From assembly GCA_002414505.1 (NCBI GenBank), contig DHZF01000049.1, positions 1-21,708 on the forward strand: a DNA stretch of 21,708 nt, given 5' to 3'. The stretch's first letter is position 1, and each line of letters opens with the position of its first letter. The notes beneath the pieces are model-generated. The model had not been told where the DNA came from. It ran no database searches and saw only the letters and a program-made list of their open reading frames with translations. This document shows positions 1 to 13,628 of this stretch, piece after piece. Source of the DNA: Hyphomonas sp. UBA5111 (GTDB taxonomy: Bacteria > Pseudomonadota > Alphaproteobacteria > Caulobacterales > Hyphomonadaceae). The position numbers and the translations under genes were made by a program.

Positions 1-906
1 AAGGTCCGCGCCGAATACGACATCCCAGCGAATGCCTGGTATTTCGAGGACAACCGGAATGGGGCCATGCCCTTCGCCGTCCTGTCGGAGATTGCGCTGC
101 AGCCGTGTGGCTGGCTCGCCAGCCATTGCGGCTTTGCCTTGTCCGGCAATCTGAAATTCCGGAATCTCGAAGGCGATGGTGTCCTGCATCGCGAGCTTCG
201 CCCGGGCGATGGGACGATGGTCGTTGAAAGCGAGCTGACGGCCTTCTCCCGTGTCGGGCCGATGACCATTGTGACCTTCAGCGTTGTGGTCACGCTAGCC
301 TCTGGCGAACCGGTGCTGGACCTGACAACCCAGTTCGGCTTTTTCCCAGCTGCCGCGCTCGTGCGTCAGGCCGGCCTGTCAGCCAAGCCACATTTCTCCG
401 CTGCGTTCGACCTGCCGGGCGAAAAAGTGAAGACGCGCCAGATTGAAAAGCGCCTTCCACGCGGCAAGATGCGCATGCTGGACACAGTCGACTATTTCAA
501 CCCGACCGGCGGAGAGGCCGGGCTCGGCCTGATCCGGGGCCGCCAAGCAGTCGATCCGAATGCGTGGTACTTCAAGGCGCACTTCTATCAGGACCCGGTC
601 CAGCCGGGGTCGCTCGGCCTTGATGCGCTCGCGCAATTGCTGGCGCGCGCCATTCTGCTCAAGGGGCTGGATGAGGGCATGAGCGACCCGCACTTTGAAA
701 CCATTGCGACCGGCGCGCCGTTCAAATGGAGCTATCGCGGACAGGTGACGCCGGACAAGAAAGAAGTCGTTACCGTGATGGAGATTGTTTCCATGGAGGA
801 ACGCGACAAGGGCTGGTTGGTCACTGCGCGGGGCAGCCTGTGGCGGGATGGGTTGCGGGTTTACGAAGTCGGACCATACAGCCTCGCCCTTGTTGATCGC
901 GGCTAA
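1..906 (+). CDS. C-terminal part of a PfaC-like polyunsaturated fatty acid/polyketide synthase (tandem FabA-like dehydratase domains), 5' truncated by the window
   Basis: The frame is open from base 1, so the ATG at 67 is internal and the gene begins outside the window. The visible 301 residues hold two hot-dog dehydratase units. The first carries the PfaC-type stretch MPFAVLSEIALQPCGWL (bases 67-117) followed by FRNLEGDG. The second has the FabA-type active-site segment HFYQDPVQPGSLGLDAL, with the catalytic-type His at bases 580-582. In PfaC-type synthases such domains dehydrate and isomerise 3-hydroxyacyl-ACP intermediates during polyunsaturated chain synthesis. The adjacent phosphopantetheinyl transferase supports a carrier-protein-dependent synthase. 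The product cannot be fixed from this fragment: long-chain PUFA, a related polyketide or a glycolipid acyl chain are all possible. The stop codon overlaps the stop of the opposite-strand PPTase gene by 4 bases. Confidence 0.85.
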   Translation, partial: KVRAEYDIPANAWYFEDNRNGAMPFAVLSEIALQPCGWLASHCGFALSGNLKFRNLEGDGVLHRELRPGDGTMVVESELTAFSRVGPMTIVTFSVVVTLASGEPVLDLTTQFGFFPAAALVRQAGLSAKPHFSAAFDLPGEKVKTRQIEKRLPRGKMRMLDTVDYFNPTGGEAGLGLIRGRQAVDPNAWYFKAHFYQDPVQPGSLGLDALAQLLARAILLKGLDEGMSDPHFETIATGAPFKWSYRGQVTPDKKEVVTVMEIVSMEERDKGWLVTARGSLWRDGLRVYEVGPYSLALVDRG

Positions 907-1577
907 CCGGTCTCGAGCGCAAGGCCGACCATGATTTCCCCATGAAGGGACCAAGAGATCGTGAAGGCGTGGCCTGCAGCCTGAACCTCTGCGTGGACCG
1001 TTTCGCCCAAAATGAAATCCTCTGGCAGGCCGATGCGAGGCGCGCCCATCCGGAAGCCCTGTCCGGCGGCTTTCATGATGGCCTCCTTGGCCGTCCAGAT
1101 ACGGTAGAAGGGAAGGAGGGCGACGCCGTCTTCAAGCTGGGTCAGCAAACGTGATTCCGATGGGGCGCAGACCATCGATACCATCTGGTGCCAATCGATG
1201 GCACGGACTCGCTCTATGTCTATCCCGATGGCGGCCTCATGGGAGAGCGCAAAGGCGGACCAGCCTTCCGTGCGGGATATGGAGAGGCACATGTCCGGAT
1301 CAAAGGAAAGAAAAGGAGCGCCCAAGGCATCATGTTCGATGATGATCTCCGCCGATTGGCGTTCGAGATGGTCGGAAAGCCCGGCGCGGACTGCTCGGAA
1401 AGACCGCTCAAGATTCGTGCGTTTGGCGGGATGGACCAGCTTTTCGAGGCGCGCCTGCTCTGCACCCGTCAGGGGCGAAGGCGGCTGCGGCGCAAACGAA
1501 TGGTCCAGCACCCAGGCCGACAGGTCAGGCCACAATTGCGCCCCGGATTGGGGTAAAGGGAAGGGGAGCTGGGTCAT
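903..1577 (-). CDS. 4'-phosphopantetheinyl transferase, Sfp/PfaE-like
   Basis: This 224-residue cytosolic enzyme would move the phosphopantetheine arm of coenzyme A onto a serine of acyl carrier domains. The diagnostic signatures of the Sfp superfamily are present: GIDIE at residues 118-122 (Mg-binding Asp120 and Glu122) and WTAKEA at 161-166, whose Glu is the third metal ligand. The N-terminal half has the usual Sfp-like region ending in SISRTEGWSAFAL. Length is normal for the family. It is tail to tail with the PUFA/polyketide synthase gene, which suggests that synthase as its substrate; the pairing resembles pfaE with pfaABCD elsewhere. No clear Shine-Dalgarno sequence precedes the ATG at 1577. 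It could also serve other carrier proteins in the cell. Confidence 0.88.
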   Translation of the reverse strand: MTQLPFPLPQSGAQLWPDLSAWVLDHSFAPQPPSPLTGAEQARLEKLVHPAKRTNLERSFRAVRAGLSDHLERQSAEIIIEHDALGAPFLSFDPDMCLSISRTEGWSAFALSHEAAIGIDIERVRAIDWHQMVSMVCAPSESRLLTQLEDGVALLPFYRIWTAKEAIMKAAGQGFRMGAPRIGLPEDFILGETVHAEVQAAGHAFTISWSLHGEIMVGLALETG

Positions 1578-1720
1578 GTGAGATGGGCTGCAATAGATAT
1601 GCCGGTTAGGCGTGAAGCGGAGAGAGGGTTTACCCCTCTGCAGCCAAGAATATGCATAAGCCGCGCATTTCCGCTAGAAGGCGGTCTGAACCAGCTCAGT
1701 ATGAGGATCCCGCGCCGAAT
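1578..1720. promoter_or_regulatory. Divergent intergenic region between the PPTase gene and dusA
   Basis: These 143 bases separate two divergent start codons and must hold both promoters, but I see no convincing -35/-10 pair. A small inverted repeat, AGAGGG (1623-1628) and CCCTCT (1634-1639), has a 5-base loop. If dusA started at the upstream in-frame ATG at 1652, part of this region would be coding, but that extension does not look like the DusA family. Confidence 0.35.
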
Positions 1721-2698
1721 ATGTCTTCCAGCCTGTCATATACATTTTCCATTGCCCCCATGATGGACTGGACCGACCGGCATTGCCGCATGTTCCATCG
1801 GAGCCTGTCGAAACATGCGCTGCTCTGGTCGGAAATGGTGACCGCTGATGCCGTCATTCATGGCGACCGTGAGCGCCTGATTGGTTATTCCGACGCCGAG
1901 CATCCCATCGTGTTGCAACTCGGCGGCAACGAGCCGGCAAAGCTCGCCGAAGCGGCCGCCATTGCCGAGCAGTTCGGCTATGACGAGGTGAATATCAATT
2001 GCGGCTGTCCGTCCGACCGGGTCCAGTCCGGCGCCTTCGGGGCCTGCCTGATGGCGCGGCCGGAGGAGGTCGCAGCGTGCGTCAGCGCCATGCGGGCGCG
2101 GGTGTCGATCCCTGTCACGGTAAAGTGCCGAATCGCCATTGATGATCTGCCAGCGGAAGAAACCTTGTTCGGCTTTGTCGAAAAAGTCAGCGCGGCAGGA
2201 TGCGAGGTCTTCACCGTCCATGCCCGCAAGGCCTGGCTGAAAGGGCTGAGCCCGAAGGAAAACCGGGATATCCCGCCGCTTGATTATGCCCTCGTCGAGC
2301 GTCTCAAGGCGGCGCGGCCTGACCTGACCATCATCCTGAATGGCGGGATCACTACAATCGACCAATGCCGCGAGCATCTGGATGTCTTCGACGGTGTCAT
2401 GCTCGGCCGGGCCGCCTATCAATCGCCCGCCTTGCTGGGAGAGGTGGACGCGGCCCTGTTCGGCAAGGGCGAACCGGTTTCGCCGCAAGCCGCCATTGAG
2501 GTTTACCGTCCCTACATGGCTGCGCGTCTGGCCGAAGGGGTGGGCCTGCACGCCATGACCCGCCACATGCTGGGCCTGTTCAATGGCCAGCCGGGTGCGC
2601 GGCGATGGCGCCGGACGCTGTCGGAAAAGGCCGTGCGCAAGGGCGCCGGTCTCGAAGTGCTCGATGAAGCTTTGAGCGCTGTCCTGCTCGACGCTTGA
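1721..2698 (+). CDS. dusA: tRNA-dihydrouridine synthase A
   Basis: This FMN-dependent enzyme reduces uridine to dihydrouridine in the D-loop of tRNA. The TIM-barrel signatures are clear: IAPMMDWTDRH near the N-terminus (residues 11-21), the catalytic segment NINCGCPSDRV (91-101, catalytic Cys probably Cys96), FTVHARKAWLKGLSPKENR for tRNA/substrate contacts, and NGGI plus GVMLGRAAY for FMN phosphate binding. These fit DusA rather than DusB or DusC. The ATG at 1721 gives 325 residues, near the family norm; an in-frame ATG at 1652 would add 23 residues of arginine-rich, family-unlike sequence. GAGGA at 1703-1707 is a possible but distant ribosome binding site. Confidence 0.93.
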   Translation: MSSSLSYTFSIAPMMDWTDRHCRMFHRSLSKHALLWSEMVTADAVIHGDRERLIGYSDAEHPIVLQLGGNEPAKLAEAAAIAEQFGYDEVNINCGCPSDRVQSGAFGACLMARPEEVAACVSAMRARVSIPVTVKCRIAIDDLPAEETLFGFVEKVSAAGCEVFTVHARKAWLKGLSPKENRDIPPLDYALVERLKAARPDLTIILNGGITTIDQCREHLDVFDGVMLGRAAYQSPALLGEVDAALFGKGEPVSPQAAIEVYRPYMAARLAEGVGLHAMTRHMLGLFNGQPGARRWRRTLSEKAVRKGAGLEVLDEALSAVLLDA

Positions 2699-2728
2699 GG
2701 TAAAGAGGTTTTAACTTTTCGGAATTTC

Positions 2729-2743
2729 GTTCTTTATTTGTTC
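2729..2743 (+). promoter_or_regulatory. LexA (SOS) box upstream of comM, GTTC-N7-GTTC
   Basis: The 15 bases GTTCTTTATTTGTTC match exactly the direct-repeat LexA operator of Alphaproteobacteria, GTTC-N7-GTTC. The box lies 45 bases upstream of the comM ATG in an AT-rich patch between dusA and comM. comM is a known member of alphaproteobacterial LexA regulons. A second box of the same form precedes recN in this window. Confidence 0.8.
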
Positions 2744-2788
2744 GTGGCAATCTGTTAACCATTTGCTCCATGCCGACTGGGGTTGGAG

Positions 2789-4357
2789 ATGGTTTGCAGG
2801 GTTACGACATTTGCCTTTGAAGGCGTAGACGCCCAGCCGGTGGACGTGCAGGTCCAGATGGCGGGCGGCCAACCGGCCTTTCATATTGTGGGCCTTCCGG
2901 ACAAGGCGGTCGGCGAAAGCCGGGAGCGGGTGAGGGCCGCCTTTGCCTCGCTCGGCCTCGCCTTGCCCCCCAAACGCGTCATCGTGAACCTCGCGCCCGC
3001 TGATCTGCCTAAGGAGGGCAGCCATTACGATCTCGCCATCGCGCTCGCCATCCTCGCCATGATGGGGGTGGTTCCCGCCGACCAGCTGGAATCCTACGCC
3101 GCCATCGGGGAATTGTCGCTCGACGGCGCGCTGGGCGAAACGCTCGGCGTCCTGCCAGCTGCGATGGCAGCAGAAGCGATGGATCTGCAACTCATCTGCC
3201 CACAGATTTGCGGTGCCGAAGCAGCCTGGGCCGGGGGCAGCGTAATCGGCGCCACGGGTCTGATTGCCCTGATCAATCATTTCACAGGGCGCAGCGTGAT
3301 CAGCCCTCCCCGGCCGGGCGAATTGGCAACGCCGCCGGCAGGCCCGGACCTGCGTGATGTGAAAGGGCAGGAAGGGGCCAAGCGCGCGCTGGAAATCGCG
3401 GCCGCCGGGGGTCATAATCTCCTCTTCTGCGGGCCGCCGGGATCGGGCAAGTCCATGCTGGCCCAGCGACTGGCGGGCATCCTGCCACCGCTGTCTGCCC
3501 GTGAATTGCTGGAAGTGTCGCAAATCCAGTCGATTGCGGGCTTGCTGGAACGCGGGCGCCTGTCGCGGCGACGGCCGTTTCGCGCGCCGCATCATTCGGC
3601 CTCGATGGCCGCCCTCGTCGGCGGAGGCATCAAGGCGAAGCCGGGGGAGGTGTCCCTCGCGCATCACGGTGTCCTGTTCCTGGATGAATTGCCGGAGTTT
3701 CCGGCGACGGTACTCGACAGTTTGCGACAGCCTCTCGAAGCCGGGGAAGCTGTCGTGGCACGCGCCAACCGGCATGTCCGGTATCCCGCGCGTTTCCAGC
3801 TGATCGCCGCGATGAATCCCTGCCGCTGTGGGGGTGGTCCGGGCGCAGCTGCCTGCCGGCGCGGGCCCCGCTGTGCCCAGCAATACCAGGCGCGGCTTTC
3901 CGGGCCCTTCCTTGACCGGATCGACCTCTATTATGACACGCCTCCGGTGACGGCTGTCGACCTTGCTCTGCCGCCGCCATCGGAGGGGTCTGCCGAAGTG
4001 CGGGACCGGGTGGCTCGCGCGCGGGATATCCAGACCGAACGGCTCTCTCATCTGGCCAGTGACACCTGCCGATCCGTCAATGCCGACACGCCTCTGCCGG
4101 AACTGGAAAAATCTGCGGCGCCCGATGAGGCGGGTGCGGCGCTGCTGGCCGACGCGGCCGCACGGCTGCAATTGACGGCGCGAGGCTACAGCCGCGTCCT
4201 CAAAGTCGCGCGGACGATTGCCGATCTTGAGGGCTGCGATGGTGTGCGGCGACTCCATATCGCCGAAGCGCTCTCCTATCGGCATCGCCCGCCCGGTATG
4301 GCCAAACCGGCTATTTCGCAGCCGCAGGGGGCGGCCTCTGGGGGCCTGGTCGGTTAA
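2789..4357 (+). CDS. comM: YifB/ComM-family Mg-chelatase-like AAA+ ATPase
   Basis: The 522-residue protein begins with the ChlI-like domain typical of ComM (VTTFAFEGVDAQPVDVQVQ, then IVGLPDKAVGESRERVRAA). The AAA+ core has Walker A GPPGSGKS (about residues 215-222) and a Walker B-like LFLDELPEF. A Cys-rich stretch, NPCRCGG followed by further cysteines, and a C-terminal Mg-chelatase domain complete it. ComM is a hexameric helicase promoting branch migration during integration of incoming single-stranded DNA. I chose the ATG at 2789 because family members start MVxRVTT; an in-frame TTG at 2783 would add two residues. GGGG at 2779-2782 is the likely ribosome binding site. The upstream LexA box predicts DNA-damage induction. 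The histidine kinase gene follows after 37 bases. Confidence 0.93.
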   Translation: MVCRVTTFAFEGVDAQPVDVQVQMAGGQPAFHIVGLPDKAVGESRERVRAAFASLGLALPPKRVIVNLAPADLPKEGSHYDLAIALAILAMMGVVPADQLESYAAIGELSLDGALGETLGVLPAAMAAEAMDLQLICPQICGAEAAWAGGSVIGATGLIALINHFTGRSVISPPRPGELATPPAGPDLRDVKGQEGAKRALEIAAAGGHNLLFCGPPGSGKSMLAQRLAGILPPLSARELLEVSQIQSIAGLLERGRLSRRRPFRAPHHSASMAALVGGGIKAKPGEVSLAHHGVLFLDELPEFPATVLDSLRQPLEAGEAVVARANRHVRYPARFQLIAAMNPCRCGGGPGAAACRRGPRCAQQYQARLSGPFLDRIDLYYDTPPVTAVDLALPPPSEGSAEVRDRVARARDIQTERLSHLASDTCRSVNADTPLPELEKSAAPDEAGAALLADAAARLQLTARGYSRVLKVARTIADLEGCDGVRRLHIAEALSYRHRPPGMAKPAISQPQGAASGGLVG

Positions 4358-4394
4358 ATGAATGATAAAGGCTTTGCGATAGGGCTGGCATCCT

Positions 4395-5876
4395 ATGACG
4401 GATGCACCCAAGCCCCCCGCCAAGCCGGAAGACACCTTCCTCGCGACGGCCAGCCACGAAATCCGGACGCCGCTCAACGGCATTCTCGGGACCGTTTCCC
4501 TGTTGCTGGAGACCGAGCTTGCTCCAGCCCAGCGCGAATATGCCGAAGCTATCCGGATGAGCGGTGCCCGCCTTCTGGATCTGCTCAACAATGTGCTGGA
4601 TTATGCCCGGCTGGATGCCTCGGCGGTGGAACTGGAGGTCGAGAATTTCTGCCCGGTCCGGCTTGGCCGTGAAGTGATCGAACTGCTCAGTCCGCGCGCG
4701 CATGCAGCCGGGCTCGATCTGGCTGTCCGGGCCCAACCCCTGCCGATGCCGACCTATTCCGGCGATGCAGGCCGTATTCGTCAGATCCTGTTCAATCTGG
4801 TGGGGAACGCGCTCAAATTCACCCGGCAGGGCTCGGTCCTGCTGGACATCATTGACCGGCAGGAGGGGCTGGAATTCCGGGTCATCGATACGGGGCCGGG
4901 TATTGCCGAATCCGACCGGGCCCAGCTGTTTCGCGCCTTTACCCAATCGGCCACGCAAGATGCGTACAAGGATGGCGGCGTCGGGCTCGGCCTCGCCATC
5001 GTCAAGCGCCTGACGGAACTCCTCGGTGGGTGGGTGGATATTGACGGCGCCCCGGGCGTGGGCACTGCCTTTACTGTCTTCCTGCCCTTGCCGCGTGCCG
5101 ACATGCCCTCGACTCATGATCTGCCCAATCTGGATATGACTGTGGGGCTGGTTGGGCTTCCGGGTGCCACCGCGCTCGCGGCCGCCTCGGCCCTGTGCGG
5201 ATCAAAGGCCACGCCTTACATGATCGATCCGGTTTCGGGCCGGGTCCCCGCCCATGTCGATGTCCTGTTGATCGGGGCAGATCTGCGCGAGAAGCTGGTC
5301 AGGGAATTTGCGCGCCAGCGTCCCACCCTGGTCGTGCTGCGTCCTGAAGACCGGGGCGCAATTGAGCGTTTCCGGAGCCTCGGATGTGCCGGATGGCTGG
5401 TGCGTCCCCTCCGGGCGTCCTCGATTGCGGAACGCGTCTTTGTCATCCAGTCCGGCGAACAGGCGATTGATGAGCCCGTGCAACAGACCGGGGCAGGGCA
5501 TGTGCTGATTGCCGATGATAATCCGGTAAACGCATTGATCGCACGCCGCGCCTTGGAATCGGCTGGTTTTAGCGTCACTGTGGCTTCCACCGGAAGCGAG
5601 GCCGTGGAGACTGCAACGCAAATGAACTTTGCCCTCATCCTTATGGATCTGCGCATGCCCGTGATGGATGGCTTTGAAGCCATGCGGCGCATTCGGGAAA
5701 CCGGGTCCACCGTGCCCATGATCGCCATCTCGGCAGAAATGAATTCCAGTATCGAACGTCAGGCCCGCGCGGCCGGCGCGAGCAGCGTCGCGGCCAAGCC
5801 TCTCGATGCTGAAGCCCTTCGCAGCCTGGCGTTGCACTGGACGAGTGAGCCGACCCGGCACGAAGGCGCTGCATGA
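4395..5876 (+). CDS. Soluble hybrid sensor histidine kinase with pseudoreceiver-like and receiver domains
   Basis: The 493-residue protein starts almost directly with the HisKA dimerisation domain: the phosphoacceptor is His21 in SHEIRTPLNG. The ATPase domain follows, with N-box NLVGNALKF (134-142), G1 DTGPG (165-169) and G2 GGVGLGL (194-200). Residues about 247-350 look receiver-like in length and hydrophobic pattern but lack an obvious phosphoacceptor motif. The C-terminal receiver (369-482) has the acidic pair DD, Asp418 in LMDLRMPVMDG, and conserved Lys468. There is no transmembrane segment and no N-terminal PAS or GAF domain, so any input must come from a partner or the middle domain. 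The stop overlaps the start of the AmpG-like gene (ATGA, 5873-5876), implying translational coupling. The output partner is not visible here. Confidence 0.88.
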   Translation: MTDAPKPPAKPEDTFLATASHEIRTPLNGILGTVSLLLETELAPAQREYAEAIRMSGARLLDLLNNVLDYARLDASAVELEVENFCPVRLGREVIELLSPRAHAAGLDLAVRAQPLPMPTYSGDAGRIRQILFNLVGNALKFTRQGSVLLDIIDRQEGLEFRVIDTGPGIAESDRAQLFRAFTQSATQDAYKDGGVGLGLAIVKRLTELLGGWVDIDGAPGVGTAFTVFLPLPRADMPSTHDLPNLDMTVGLVGLPGATALAAASALCGSKATPYMIDPVSGRVPAHVDVLLIGADLREKLVREFARQRPTLVVLRPEDRGAIERFRSLGCAGWLVRPLRASSIAERVFVIQSGEQAIDEPVQQTGAGHVLIADDNPVNALIARRALESAGFSVTVASTGSEAVETATQMNFALILMDLRMPVMDGFEAMRRIRETGSTVPMIAISAEMNSSIERQARAAGASSVAAKPLDAEALRSLALHWTSEPTRHEGAA

Positions 5877-11139: not shown

Positions 11140-11166
11140 TTGACATGAAGGCGCCACATTTGTAGT
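11140..11166 (+). promoter_or_regulatory. Promoter and possible BlaI-type operator of the repressor-protease operon
   Basis: A consensus -35 TTGACA lies at 11140-11145; a weak -10 (TGTAGT at 11161-11166) follows. Between and overlapping them is the small dyad ACATTTGT (11156-11163), followed by AGT, reminiscent of the ACA/TGT half sites bound by BlaI/MecI repressors. Position, 30 bases upstream of the blaI-like start, suits autorepression. The dyad is short and the assignment is inferred. Confidence 0.45.
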
Positions 11167-11195
11167 GGGTGGGTGACCAACTTAGCGAGATTGCC

Positions 11196-11579
11196 ATGTC
11201 CCAACCCAATCCCTCCGAACTCGCCGTGCTGAAACATTTCTGGTCTGCCGGCCCGCAAAGCGCGCGGGAAGTGCATGAGGCCATCGGCCCGGCGCAAGGC
11301 TGGAAGTCCTCCACCACGCGCACCGTCATTGCGCGCATGGAAGAGAAGGGGTGGGTCACGCGGGCCGATGTGCATGGCATGGCGGTCTTTACCGCCGCGC
11401 TTGACCGGACCGCAACGCTTGGCGGCCTTGTCCGGCATCTTGCCCGACAGGTGCTGGACATGGACGGGCCCTTGCCTGCCGCGCTGTTTGCCGAGAGCCC
11501 GCACCTGTCGGACGCTGAACTCGACGAGCTTGATGCCATCATCAATGCCGCCGCCAGCGATACGGAGGACAAGGCATGA
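11196..11579 (+). CDS. BlaI/MecI/CopY-family transcriptional repressor
   Basis: The 127-residue protein has the family's winged helix-turn-helix (about residues 5-65): LAVLKHFWSAGPQSAREVHEAI, then SSTTRTVIARMEEKGWV. The C-terminal dimerisation part ends in LSDAELDELDAII, as in BlaI. In BlaI/BlaR1 systems the repressor blocks its own operon and a resistance gene until a membrane M56 protease triggers its cleavage. Here the next gene, overlapping by ATGA at 11576-11579, encodes such a protease, so the pair is almost certainly functional. The ATG at 11196 is chosen; an in-frame GTG at 11169 would add nine residues across the promoter. No beta-lactamase gene is adjacent, so the target genes lie elsewhere or are the operon itself. 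Confidence 0.9.
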   Translation: MSQPNPSELAVLKHFWSAGPQSAREVHEAIGPAQGWKSSTTRTVIARMEEKGWVTRADVHGMAVFTAALDRTATLGGLVRHLARQVLDMDGPLPAALFAESPHLSDAELDELDAIINAAASDTEDKA

Positions 11580-13042
11580 GCCTGCTCGGACTGGTTTGCC
11601 TCGCCCTCGTCTGGAGCGCCGCGCTCTGGCTGCTCGCCACCGGGCTCTGCGCGCTCAAGCCCTCGCCCAAGATGGCGCAGGCAATCTGGCGCGGCGCCGC
11701 GGCGCTCATGTTCGCCCCATTCCTCGCGTCTGCCTTCATGCCGGGCTTCAGTCAGGTCGCCGGACAGGCACTGCCGGATATGCCCATGATGGAAGTGCTC
11801 AGGGTTCAGACGGAGGCTGACTTTGTCGAAGCGGCCCAACCTTCCTTCCGTATACCTCCAATCGAGACGATGATCCTGTGGGGGCTGGTGGCGGGGTGGA
11901 GCGTGCGTGTGCTCTGCTGGGGTATGGGGCAGGCGCGGCTACAGCGGCTGAAGCAGACATCCCGCCCGGTTGTGCGTCCGGTCCGCCATTGGGCCGATGC
12001 CATCGGGTTGCGGCGCGTTCCGGACGTGCGTGTCATCCCGCACGGCGCGCCCTTTCTGGCGGGCATCCTGCGTCCGGTAATATTCATTCCGGCGGCGCTG
12101 ATCTCGAAACAGCACACACCCCAGATCATCGTGCACGAACTGGTTCACCTGAAGCGGGGAGACCTGCTGACCCGGCCCTTCGACCGTATGGTCGCGGACC
12201 TCTTCTGGTTCTCGCTTTTCGCCTGGGCTATCCGCGAACGGCTCGACTATTGGCGCGAAGCCATTGTCGATGAAGAGACGGCGGACCTGACAGGGGATCG
12301 GATCGCCTATGCCCGGGCCCTGACCCAGGTCGCGCGACATGCCCGGCCTGCGCTCATCCTGCCGGTTGCAGCATTCACCCTAAAGAAGGAAGGAACCCTG
12401 AAAATGCGCCTGACCCAATTGCTGAGTGAAACCCCGCACCGGCCGAAGCGCCTTGGCCTTGCCGTGGTCGCTGCGCTCGCGCTCGCCACGCCGCTCGCCC
12501 TTGCGCAGGGATCCCTGATCCGTGGCGCAGCCATTCTGCCTGTCGATGCAATTACCTACAGCCATCCCGTGCTCGACAAGGCCAAACTGACCAGCGCGTT
12601 TGGCCTGCGCAAGCATCCCGTCTCGGGTGAGGCGAAAGAGCATAAAGGCGTGGATCTCGCCGAGGAAGAAGGCAAGCCGGTCTATGCGCCAGCGGAGGCC
12701 ACCGTGACCCGCGCGGAAATGACCCGCGGCTATGGCAATCTCGTTGAAATTTCTGCGGGTAATACGGTGCTGCGCTTCGGCCAGTTGAAAGACATCAAGG
12801 TGTCTGCGGGGCAATCCGTATCTGCCGGAACGGTTATTGGCGCGCTCGGCCAGTCCGGTCAGGCGACGGGACCGCACTTGCACCTGGAGGTCTGGCGCGA
12901 CGGCGCGGCTATTGATCCGATGGAGGAGCCGGGGCTTGTCCTGGCCGACTCGCTGTTCATCACTTCAAGCTCCGGTGCCAAAGTCCCGGAAGCGCCAGTT
13001 GCGCCTAAGCCTCCATCGGCGCCGACCGCGCCGCAGCCCTAA
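11576..13042 (+). CDS. BlaR1-like M56 membrane metalloprotease fused to an M23 (LytM) peptidase domain
   Basis: This 488-residue protein has hydrophobic segments near 4-23, 41-56, 97-117, 205-220 and 293-311. The M56 zinc protease core carries HELVH (His187, Glu188, His191), with the acidic DEE at 232-234 as likely third ligand. BlaR1 and MecR1 end in a penicillin-binding sensor domain; here residues about 327-450 are instead an M23 peptidase: FGLRKHPVSG, zinc ligands His356 and Asp360 in HKGVD, and His434/His436 in GPHLHLEVW. At the position of the usual YxH catalytic histidine the sequence reads FGQL (Gln403). A proline/alanine-rich tail closes the protein. Inferred role: the outer domain binds peptidoglycan or its fragments, and the inner protease inactivates the coupled BlaI. 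It might alternatively be a cell-wall hydrolase with a regulatory protease. Confidence 0.88.
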   Translation: MSLLGLVCLALVWSAALWLLATGLCALKPSPKMAQAIWRGAAALMFAPFLASAFMPGFSQVAGQALPDMPMMEVLRVQTEADFVEAAQPSFRIPPIETMILWGLVAGWSVRVLCWGMGQARLQRLKQTSRPVVRPVRHWADAIGLRRVPDVRVIPHGAPFLAGILRPVIFIPAALISKQHTPQIIVHELVHLKRGDLLTRPFDRMVADLFWFSLFAWAIRERLDYWREAIVDEETADLTGDRIAYARALTQVARHARPALILPVAAFTLKKEGTLKMRLTQLLSETPHRPKRLGLAVVAALALATPLALAQGSLIRGAAILPVDAITYSHPVLDKAKLTSAFGLRKHPVSGEAKEHKGVDLAEEEGKPVYAPAEATVTRAEMTRGYGNLVEISAGNTVLRFGQLKDIKVSAGQSVSAGTVIGALGQSGQATGPHLHLEVWRDGAAIDPMEEPGLVLADSLFITSSSGAKVPEAPVAPKPPSAPTAPQP

Positions 13043-13124: not shown

Positions 13125-13628
13125 ATGGCATCACCCAAGCCGGTTGGGAAAGCCACACCGATGGTCGGCGGTGTGCTGACATTCATCCTGTTTGGCATTC
13201 ACCGCCTGTTTGTGGGTCAGATATATTCCCGCTCTGAAGCCATGAGTCTCGTCAAGGCCTTGTCCGACTCCTCCCTCTATTTCGGCGCAGCCATTGCCAG
13301 CGCGTCTGCCACCATCCTGGCCCTGATGCTCACCATGTTGGGGATGATGCATAATAGCAGTGCCGATATCGGCATCTGGCTGTTCAAGCGCGTGCGCATG
13401 ATTGCCTGGTTTGCCACGATCAGCCTGTGCAGCGCCGTCGCCTTGCTGACTTTCTCGTCCATCCCGATCGGGGAATTCGAAGACATCCCGACGAATTGGT
13501 ATGTGCTGTCCTACTACGCCATTGCCACGCTGATGGCTGTGCTGGCTGGCTTGCTGGTGACGAGCATCCTGCTGATTCTTGGCGCGGTGCGGTATCTGGT
13601 GAACCGGCTGGCGCCTGAAGTCGAGTAG
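13125..13628 (+). CDS. Hypothetical integral membrane protein
   Basis: I do not recognise this 167-residue protein. It has probable membrane segments at about residues 13-31 (weak), 50-73, 92-112 and 127-155, with short charged links (FKRVRM, GEFEDIP) and a basic turn near the C-terminus. There are no cysteine or histidine clusters and no enzymatic motif. The start is well supported: AGGAGG at 13111-13116 lies 8 bases before the ATG. It is separated from the protease gene by 82 bases containing an inverted repeat, so it may or may not share the operon. Its stop lies 5 bases from the end of the convergent prs gene. Confidence 0.72.
   Translation: MASPKPVGKATPMVGGVLTFILFGIHRLFVGQIYSRSEAMSLVKALSDSSLYFGAAIASASATILALMLTMLGMMHNSSADIGIWLFKRVRMIAWFATISLCSAVALLTFSSIPIGEFEDIPTNWYVLSYYAIATLMAVLAGLLVTSILLILGAVRYLVNRLAPEVE

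Follow-up and report, generated by a model that had tools for sequence, protein, structure and literature searches.

We analyzed a stretch of DNA of 21,708 nucleotides (nt) from Hyphomonas sp. UBA5111 (family Hyphomonadaceae; contig DHZF01000049.1 of assembly GCA_002414505.1), hereafter the window, which carries a two-gene operon: a BlaI-family repressor gene followed by a gene for a membrane protein that joins an M56 metalloprotease to a C-terminal M23 peptidoglycan-peptidase domain. In this M23 domain, the zinc ligands are intact and the second catalytic histidine is replaced by glutamine (Gln403). We favor the reading, in which our confidence just passes the even mark, that the protein is a receptor of the BlaR1 type whose M23 sensor is disabled, operating as a one-component transmembrane switch in the style of BlaI-BlaR1, and the sequence features suggest that it senses pieces of cell wall, probably peptidoglycan peptides, and not penicillin. 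BlaR1, the textbook example of a membrane protease that doubles as a receptor, is known for drug sensing; the source organism here is marine, and staphylococci use a switch of like build to detect penicillin.

On the evidence of open reading frames (ORFs), Pfam scores and homologues, the M56-M23 architecture beside a BlaI gene is real. The end of blaI and the start of the M56-M23 gene overlap in an ATGA; blaI was read from the ATG at 11196, and an alternative GTG at 11169 would add nine amino acids. Within the 488-residue protein, the HELVH, HKGVD and HLH motifs start at residues 187, 356 and 434, respectively. A protein search with the M56-M23 protein scored 7999 candidates and yielded 752 relatives, and among the 120 of these that were listed, numerous M56-M23 proteins are full-length and come from more than one source, ruling out a misjoined frame, an artefact or a chance match. 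Hyphomonas predominates among the organisms named in the list, and Henriciella also occurs. One database name among the relatives listed is "M23/M56 family metallopeptidase", bearing out the expectation of the initial annotation, made from the letters of the window, that such fusions might already exist as automatic annotations. The overlapping BlaI gene, the M56 HELVH core and the M23 domain described there were likewise confirmed by the ORFs, Pfam scores and homologues; its account of the M23 motifs, HKGVD and HLH, was right as far as it went and incomplete, with Gln403 and a likely operator 5' of blaI both absent from it.

In LytM, His260 and His291 activate the water molecule, and alanine at the equivalent of either is reported to abolish the activity of LytM, lysostaphin, LasA and ALE-1 (PMC4594094). 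Gln403 stands at the place of His260. Across 58 readable fusions from genome loci of the family (L146, which is cut off, was left out), this histidine is replaced in every case, by Gln in 53, Ser in 4 and Arg in 1, while H356, D360, H434 and H436 are all kept in 58/58. Of 113 database homologues aligned, 108 have a residue at this place (101 Gln, 3 Ser, 2 Lys, 1 Val, 1 Glu and no His), with H356 and D360 present in 108/108 and H434 in 106/108; the two sets have members in common and are linked by descent. By contrast, four structure alignments (of 37 matches) place His at the Gln403 position, and so do all five of the proteins read among the six other M23 proteins of the window's genome (L013 was left out). 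The histidine is also present in 68/68 M23 ORFs without M56 from the scan of the best 80 loci, a control set that the canonical M23 motif used in the scan tilts toward normal enzymes, to the detriment of our reading. The ratio of nonsynonymous to synonymous substitution rates (dN/dS) of the M23 domain was 0.08-0.32 across seven chosen pairs, with dS saturated in several of them; together with the invariant zinc ligands, these values rule out a decayed M23 domain. Mutation of Tyr204 leaves LytM little or no activity, yet the mutants retain peptidoglycan binding (PMC4594094). Because the second catalytic His is lost while the zinc ligands stay, a sensor role is favored for the M23 domain over an enzymatic one.

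The same residues could be read differently, namely, as those of a membrane-tethered enzyme that still cuts peptidoglycan with Gln in place, so that the M23 domain would be the output and BlaI-M56 would set its amount. Retention of the zinc ligands and His434, the full catalytic set of 11 of the 13 fusions found outside the family (the other two have Cys and Gln) and the restriction of the exact operator in Hyphomonas to this operon would all suit such an enzyme. We nevertheless consider it unlikely, given the contrast between the family fusions, none of which has the His, and the M23 ORFs without M56, all of which have it, as well as the separate His-bearing M23 gene that stands beside the fusion in four loci. 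The mutants point the same way, in that LytM and related enzymes lose activity when either His is changed to alanine, the replacement made there (PMC4594094).

Loss of the catalytic His is also what would be expected of a docking domain that, like EnvC, NlpD or DipM, binds an amidase or a lytic transglycosylase, in which case the switch would read the state of the division machinery. Inactive LytM domains do regulate autolysins, as exemplified by DipM in Caulobacter (PMC10336132). The metal site of DipM, however, is degenerate (PMC10336132), whereas the zinc ligands are kept throughout the family fusions, and degenerate M23 folds are defined by missing catalytic motifs and/or zinc (PMC9662197); docking thus appears decidedly unlikely to us.

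A potential live counterpart of the sensor is present in four loci of the family (L190-L193), where a gene on the same strand, ~70-115 nt after the fusion, encodes an M23 protein of 169-183 amino acids with a signal-peptide-like start and, in 4/4 cases, His at the His260 place. In the M23 tree, which has few columns and a midpoint root, these four proteins form one group (100/99), and the group of 34 that encloses them (99/97) otherwise consists of fused M23 domains and a remnant in G022. Being nested among fused domains, the downstream M23 proteins are close kin of the sensor domain, and the natural His/Gln or His/Ser pairs within single operons make the sensing question experimentally approachable. 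The remnant (L148, 9153-9653, minus strand) has Gln at the His260 place and no adjoining M56 or BlaI gene, which we take, from its sequence, as a sign of loss of the system in G022. In L027, from an unrelated genome, an M23 gene also lies just after the fusion, and the fused M23 domain itself retains the His; in L053, the fused domain has as its sister (99/82) an M23 gene located 2 kb downstream. Four Hyphomonas loci (L128, L134, L138 and L147) have a lipoprotein-like gene encoding 99-103 amino acids that shares 4 nt with the end of the M56 receptor gene.

To compare the M56 part with BlaR1, we used a profile of 320 positions built from 15 M56 parts of the family. Positions 6-304 align with residues 7-318 of Staphylococcus aureus BlaR1, a weak match (E 0.0022) of nearly full length, in which BlaR1 H201, H205, D210, E242, D246, Y261 and R294 face, by eye, H187, H191, D196, E228, D232, Y245 and R278. 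In an alignment of 52 rows (A1), H187, E188, D196, E228, D232, Y245 and R278 are present in 52/52 and H191 in 51/52. Hydropathy peaks in the window protein at residues 3-21, 37-55, 96-114 and 293-311, and a further peak, at 153-171, falls within the protease. Basic residues exceed acidic ones in the loop between transmembrane segments 1 and 2 (TM1 and TM2; 2 to 0) and in the protease part (27 to 16), and acidic residues exceed basic ones in loop 58-96 (5 to 2) and, by a small margin, over the C-terminal part (19 to 16). The segments and charges match an N-out, C-out plan, which is that of BlaR1, with its four TM helices and re-entrant loop and described roles for its catalytic residues (PMC9834060). 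Hydropathy, loop charges and the near full-length profile match to BlaR1 hence place the M23 domain, by prediction, in the periplasm and the M56 protease in the cytoplasm. Loop 58-96, the counterpart of BlaR1 EL1, shows the lowest identity of three regions compared in 7/7 pairs.

A shared chassis might also suggest plain beta-lactam sensing, with an M23 domain substituted for the penicillin-binding one. This is very improbable: domain searches found no penicillin-binding or beta-lactamase domain in the M56-M23 protein, and no beta-lactamase or penicillin-binding protein (PBP) turned up among nine genes near distal operator sites, the subset of such genes given to Pfam. The NCBIfam model blaR1_generic scored 25.9 bits on the window protein, with a cut-off of 400.

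The repressor fits the same chassis. Residues 7-117 of BlaI align without gaps to residues 11-121 of MecI (E 0.0013), and because of this alignment Leu97-Phe98 is predicted to be the equivalent of Asn101-Phe102, where BlaR1 cuts BlaI (PMC9834060); the P1' Phe is kept in 62/62 BlaI proteins of the family and in 10/13 outside it. BlaI is encoded directly upstream of M56 in all 62 intact family loci (the window, L127-L147 and L186-L225) and directly upstream of all 13 M56-M23 fusions outside the family. The scan of named genomes used the canonical M23 motif as one of its two patterns, and of its 585 related loci the best 80 were retained; these 80 loci together with the window and two further contigs contained 23 ORFs with both domains (including that of the window), and in 23/23 a BlaI gene lies upstream on the same strand, overlapping or at most 50 nt away, some apparent long overlaps being due to over-extended ORF starts. 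The initial annotation had made its proposal hinge on a periplasmic M23 domain and on linkage to BlaI genes; the predicted topology agrees with the first, and the second holds throughout these loci. Separately, locus L016 of the window's genome holds, at 556-5363 on the minus strand, another BlaI gene, the third, followed by an M48/M56-like membrane protease according to Pfam and by what reads as a TonB-dependent-receptor-like gene.

Regulation was approached through the putative operator. In 22 Hyphomonas loci, a TACAnnTGTA palindrome lies 40-53 nt before the blaI ATG, perfect in 21 and with one mismatch in the window, and TTGAC precedes the operator in 22/22 of the loci displayed. Across the family, a perfect palindrome lies near the blaI start in 52/62 loci, and in the 367 kb surrounding L186-L225, 39/40 TACAnnTGTA sites lie by a blaI start. 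For the related CopY, this motif alone is a poor predictor (PMC7253601). The exact 16-mer CRYTACANNTGTARYG occurs once each in 21 of 42 genus genomes, 20 times at the blaI promoter of a carrier and once in G031, where only the operator and the blaI start are present at a contig end; it occurs in 0/19 genus genomes without the system, and the carriers lacking it are the window's genome and G026. A reversed-pattern control gave 36 matches vs 21 for the real pattern, so the Hyphomonas count matters because 20 of the 21 are at one orthologous place, with the other by a blaI start. Allowing one mismatch in 14 genomes returned 0-6 sites each (own promoter counted) vs 14-24 for the control. At exact match, no broad Hyphomonas regulon was found in the 42 genomes, none of which has a distal site, and because the exact operator sits only at this operon, the Hyphomonas operon looks like a private, self-regulated one.

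A wider target is possible in a related genus (g3). Its 24 genomes contain 54 sites vs 80 for the control, so the distal sites show no numerical excess and their case rests on recurrence before orthologous genes, specifically, before a TonB-dependent receptor gene. A perfect TACAnnTGTA precedes this gene in 20/20 carriers of g3 and g6 where the gene was found (L311-L330), against a background rate outside blaI promoters of ~0.001 per 420 nt, estimated from a single site in the fetched loci; second copies of the gene in L334 and L335 lack a perfect site. The gene is present in 20/24 carriers searched vs 0/5 non-carriers (p 0.001, or 0.013 with a weak, partial G072 match included). Assignment of these sites to the M56-M23-linked BlaI is not firm. 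A paralogous second BlaI-M56 pair has an operator of the GACCACAnnTGTAGTC type, by which the receptor-gene sites as sites of the paralog were mostly rejected; 4 of the 20, however, have paralog-like flanks, and the receptor orthologue in the two Hyphomonas genomes examined has a paralog-like, GACCACAnnTGTAGTC-type site (the loci for the pair and these sites together are L331, L332, L292-L299 and L015). The target seems, from these sites, to have moved between the two repressors. In L276, the TonB-dependent receptor gene (1-1464, minus strand) is divergent from a D-Ala-D-Ala ligase gene, ddl (1651-2556, plus strand; Pfam), and in four further loci it lies beside a relative of that ligase.

On the favored reading, the system could work as follows. 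At rest, BlaI would occupy the operator in the blaI promoter and keep its own operon low. The M56-M23 protein would sit in the inner membrane with the protease toward the cytoplasm and the M23 domain in the periplasm, where the latter would hold zinc and probably a stem peptide or crosslink of peptidoglycan and, without the second His, would bind and not cut. Occupancy would shift TM4 and the EL1-like loop and activate M56, which would cleave BlaI at Leu97-Phe98 and derepress the operon. In some relatives, derepression may also yield the predicted-secreted M23 enzyme, the lipoprotein or the TonB-dependent receptor; in the window, the sequence points to no output other than the receptor's own operon, to which the gene 82 nt downstream may be added. 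A peptidoglycan dipeptide binds BlaI and MecI directly (PMC3305447), making a second input to the switch through BlaI possible. The domains, the conserved catalytic residues, the topology signal, the linkage to BlaI, the operator-like site, the Phe of the cleavage site, the replaced His and the paired M23 gene of relatives are read from sequence; binding without hydrolysis, the ligand, signaling, BlaI cleavage and regulation are inferred. The interpretation given in the initial annotation is partly supported: a sensor role is favored, and a cell-wall peptide as ligand and a broad cell-wall-stress response as output stay proposals. In Hyphomonas, the exact operator is confined to this operon, and the TonB-dependent receptor of the related genus is a possible wider target.

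Several observations weigh against this reading. Because 11 of the 13 fusions outside the family keep the His, a disabled M23 site is not general for the architecture, and within the family the Gln may go back to one ancestral change in one clade, so that the 58 fusions are not independent. The paired M23 gene is present in only 4 of the 40 family loci outside Hyphomonas and in 0/22 Hyphomonas loci, hence also not in the window, and the lack of a distal exact operator obscures what the output in Hyphomonas would be. In 10 of 62 loci, the window included, no perfect TACAnnTGTA lies by blaI. The autocleavage Phe284 of BlaR1 faces no Phe in the M56-M23 alignment, so a BlaR1-like autocleavage Phe was rejected. 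Finally, three BlaI-M56 loci have no M23 match, L147 (with TonB_C), L205 (where Pfam agrees) and L224. These loci, and the presence of TonB_C in just 12 of 20 readable Hyphomonas fusions (by a profile of our own), would suit an arrangement in which the EL1-like loop, the membrane part or TonB_C senses, the C-terminal domain being an exchangeable extra. The low dN/dS of the M23 domain and its invariant zinc ligands speak against a secondary role of this kind, to which we give a slim chance.

A broader proposal is that a disabled-enzyme receptor for peptidoglycan peptides controls, via BlaI proteolysis, a cell-wall salvage or envelope-repair set that is not the same in every lineage. The set could comprise a live M23 endopeptidase that is secreted, a TonB-dependent receptor, or nothing beyond the receptor operon. 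We advance it tentatively, as something possible rather than expected. If true, it would mean, taken with BlaR1 and beta-lactamase, that the arrangement in which a disabled enzyme senses and a live relative is the output arose more than once on the M56-BlaI chassis. A BlaR1 branch with a peptidoglycan-peptidase sensor, its zinc site kept and one catalytic His replaced, would by itself imply that sensors can be swapped on this chassis and that the cell wall can be read without an intermediary. How Gram-negative bacteria of this sort perceive peptidoglycan damage in the periplasm, or peptidoglycan from outside, would then become a testable question.

Among 42 genus genomes searched, some of them incomplete, 21 have M56-M23 (that of G012 is split by a contig end), and G008 has an M56 with TonB_C and no M23 match; a search of 105 family genomes gave matches in 65 at E 1e-40. 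In a sample of 289 genomes from the class, matches were limited to the genome of the window and one other Hyphomonas genome. A gene cluster (c1) that reads by eye as a PRPP-synthetase-like gene lies at most three genes downstream in 21/21 Hyphomonas loci with enough flank, and also in L019-L023. Given this conserved neighbor, and with none of the collection's plasmid records covering 80% of the M56-M23 protein, a mobile cassette is unsupported. A single origin of all M56-M23 fusions is also unsupported: counted from starred branches of the M56 tree, which has few columns and some long branches, five label changes (gains or losses) are forced for the family and five for the other fusions. Duganella, Massilia and Janthinobacterium have BlaI-M56-M23 operons of their own, with His at the His260 place (L028, L030, L032, L036, L053, L068 and L092) and GCGACAnnTGTCGC-like palindromes in their promoters. 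In L203 (4007-6157), a partial M23 match lies ahead of the full M23 domain, and in its group, which also takes in L202, L204, L224 and L205, the displayed members have long linkers rich in Pro, Ala and Glu.

The C-terminal end of the receptor varies as well. Many relatives are ~636 amino acids long and end in TonB_C; the window DNA is ~430 bp shorter at the C-terminal tail than that of a close relative, L133, whose fusion has TonB_C (Pfam-confirmed). At 13125-13628, 82 nt past the receptor gene, the window encodes a 167-residue membrane protein without a Pfam match, relatives of which occupy the same place in L133, L140 and L141 among the loci compared. Coordinates are collected in Table 1.

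Table 1. Features of the blaI/M56-M23 operon and its promoter, in window coordinates.
Feature	Position	Strand	Basis
TTGACA, likely -35 of blaI promoter	11140..11145	+	read directly
Putative BlaI-type operator CGCCACATTTGTAGTG, one mismatch to CRYTACANNTGTARYG	11152..11167	.	2 matches in window at <=2 mismatches, 0.13 expected
blaI-family repressor gene, 127 aa	11196..11579	+	Pfam Penicillinase_R 71.1 bits (cut-off 22.6)
Codons Leu97-Phe98, predicted cleavage site (Asn101-Phe102 of BlaI/MecI)	11484..11489	+	MecI alignment
M56-M23 transmembrane metalloprotease/receptor gene, 488 aa	11576..13042	+	ORF reading, Pfam, protein search
M56 protease domain, residues 28-281	11657..12418	+	Pfam Peptidase_M56 62.2 bits (cut-off 31); profile match to BlaR1 8exp
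Predicted periplasmic loop TM2-TM3, residues 58-96, counterpart of BlaR1 EL1	11747..11863	+	hydropathy, charges
HELVH zinc motif of M56 (H187, E188, H191)	12134..12148	+	alignment A1
E228xxxD232, counterpart of BlaR1 E242xxxD	12257..12271	+	52/52 rows of A1; aligned to BlaR1
Predicted TM4, residues 293-311, leading out to periplasm	12452..12508	+	hydropathy/charges
M23 domain, residues 355-448	12638..12919	+	Pfam Peptidase_M23 93.9 bits (cut-off 28.7)
HKGVD, zinc ligands H356 and D360	12641..12655	+	kept in 58/58 readable family fusions
Gln403 (RFGQL) replacing catalytic His (LytM His260)	12782..12784	+	alignments
HLH: H434 (LytM His291), zinc ligand H436	12875..12883	+	kept in 58/58 readable family fusions
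C-terminal tail, end proline-rich, without TonB_C	12962..13039	+	DNA comparison with L133

Among the open-access literature matches listed, judged by titles and abstract openings, none describes a function, operon, operator or active-site loss for M56-M23 proteins. A review names M56 among the rare partners of M23 and notes that a part for M56 in cleaving peptidoglycan is not demonstrated (PMC9662197), and the database proteins called "M23/M56 family metallopeptidase" have an architecture identical to that of the window and are named automatically. With M23 endopeptidases such as LytM, lysostaphin and MepM, the window's domain shares the fold family and the HxxxD and HxH motifs, but it differs in the non-His residue at the His260 equivalent, Gln here, and in its fusion to M56. 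The degenerate LytM factors EnvC, NlpD and DipM are alike in having an M23 fold from which cutting is not expected, whereas the window's M23 has lost only the second His, with H356, D360 and H436 intact.

The closest comparison is with BlaI-BlaR1 and MecI-MecR1 of Staphylococcus and Bacillus licheniformis, which share the BlaI-family repressor, the M56 HExxH...ExxxD protease with its catalytic and second-shell residues, the TM plan and the Phe of the BlaI cleavage site; the putative operator resembles their TACA/TGTA type (PMC7253601). Unlike BlaR1 and MecR1, the window protein has a sensor of the M23 peptidase type and no penicillin-binding (class D-like) domain. The repressor gene comes first in the window, unlike in S. 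aureus, where the order is blaR1-blaI, and the nine genes tested include no beta-lactamase or PBP target. Judged by its sequence, the system would be a variant of the BlaR1 kind, with the chassis shared and the sensor exchanged. The BlaR1 sensor itself resembles a class D beta-lactamase with slow turnover and drug release (PMC9834060, PMC7593790), and BlaR1 with its induced beta-lactamase is paralleled by the M23 sensor with its paired live M23 gene.

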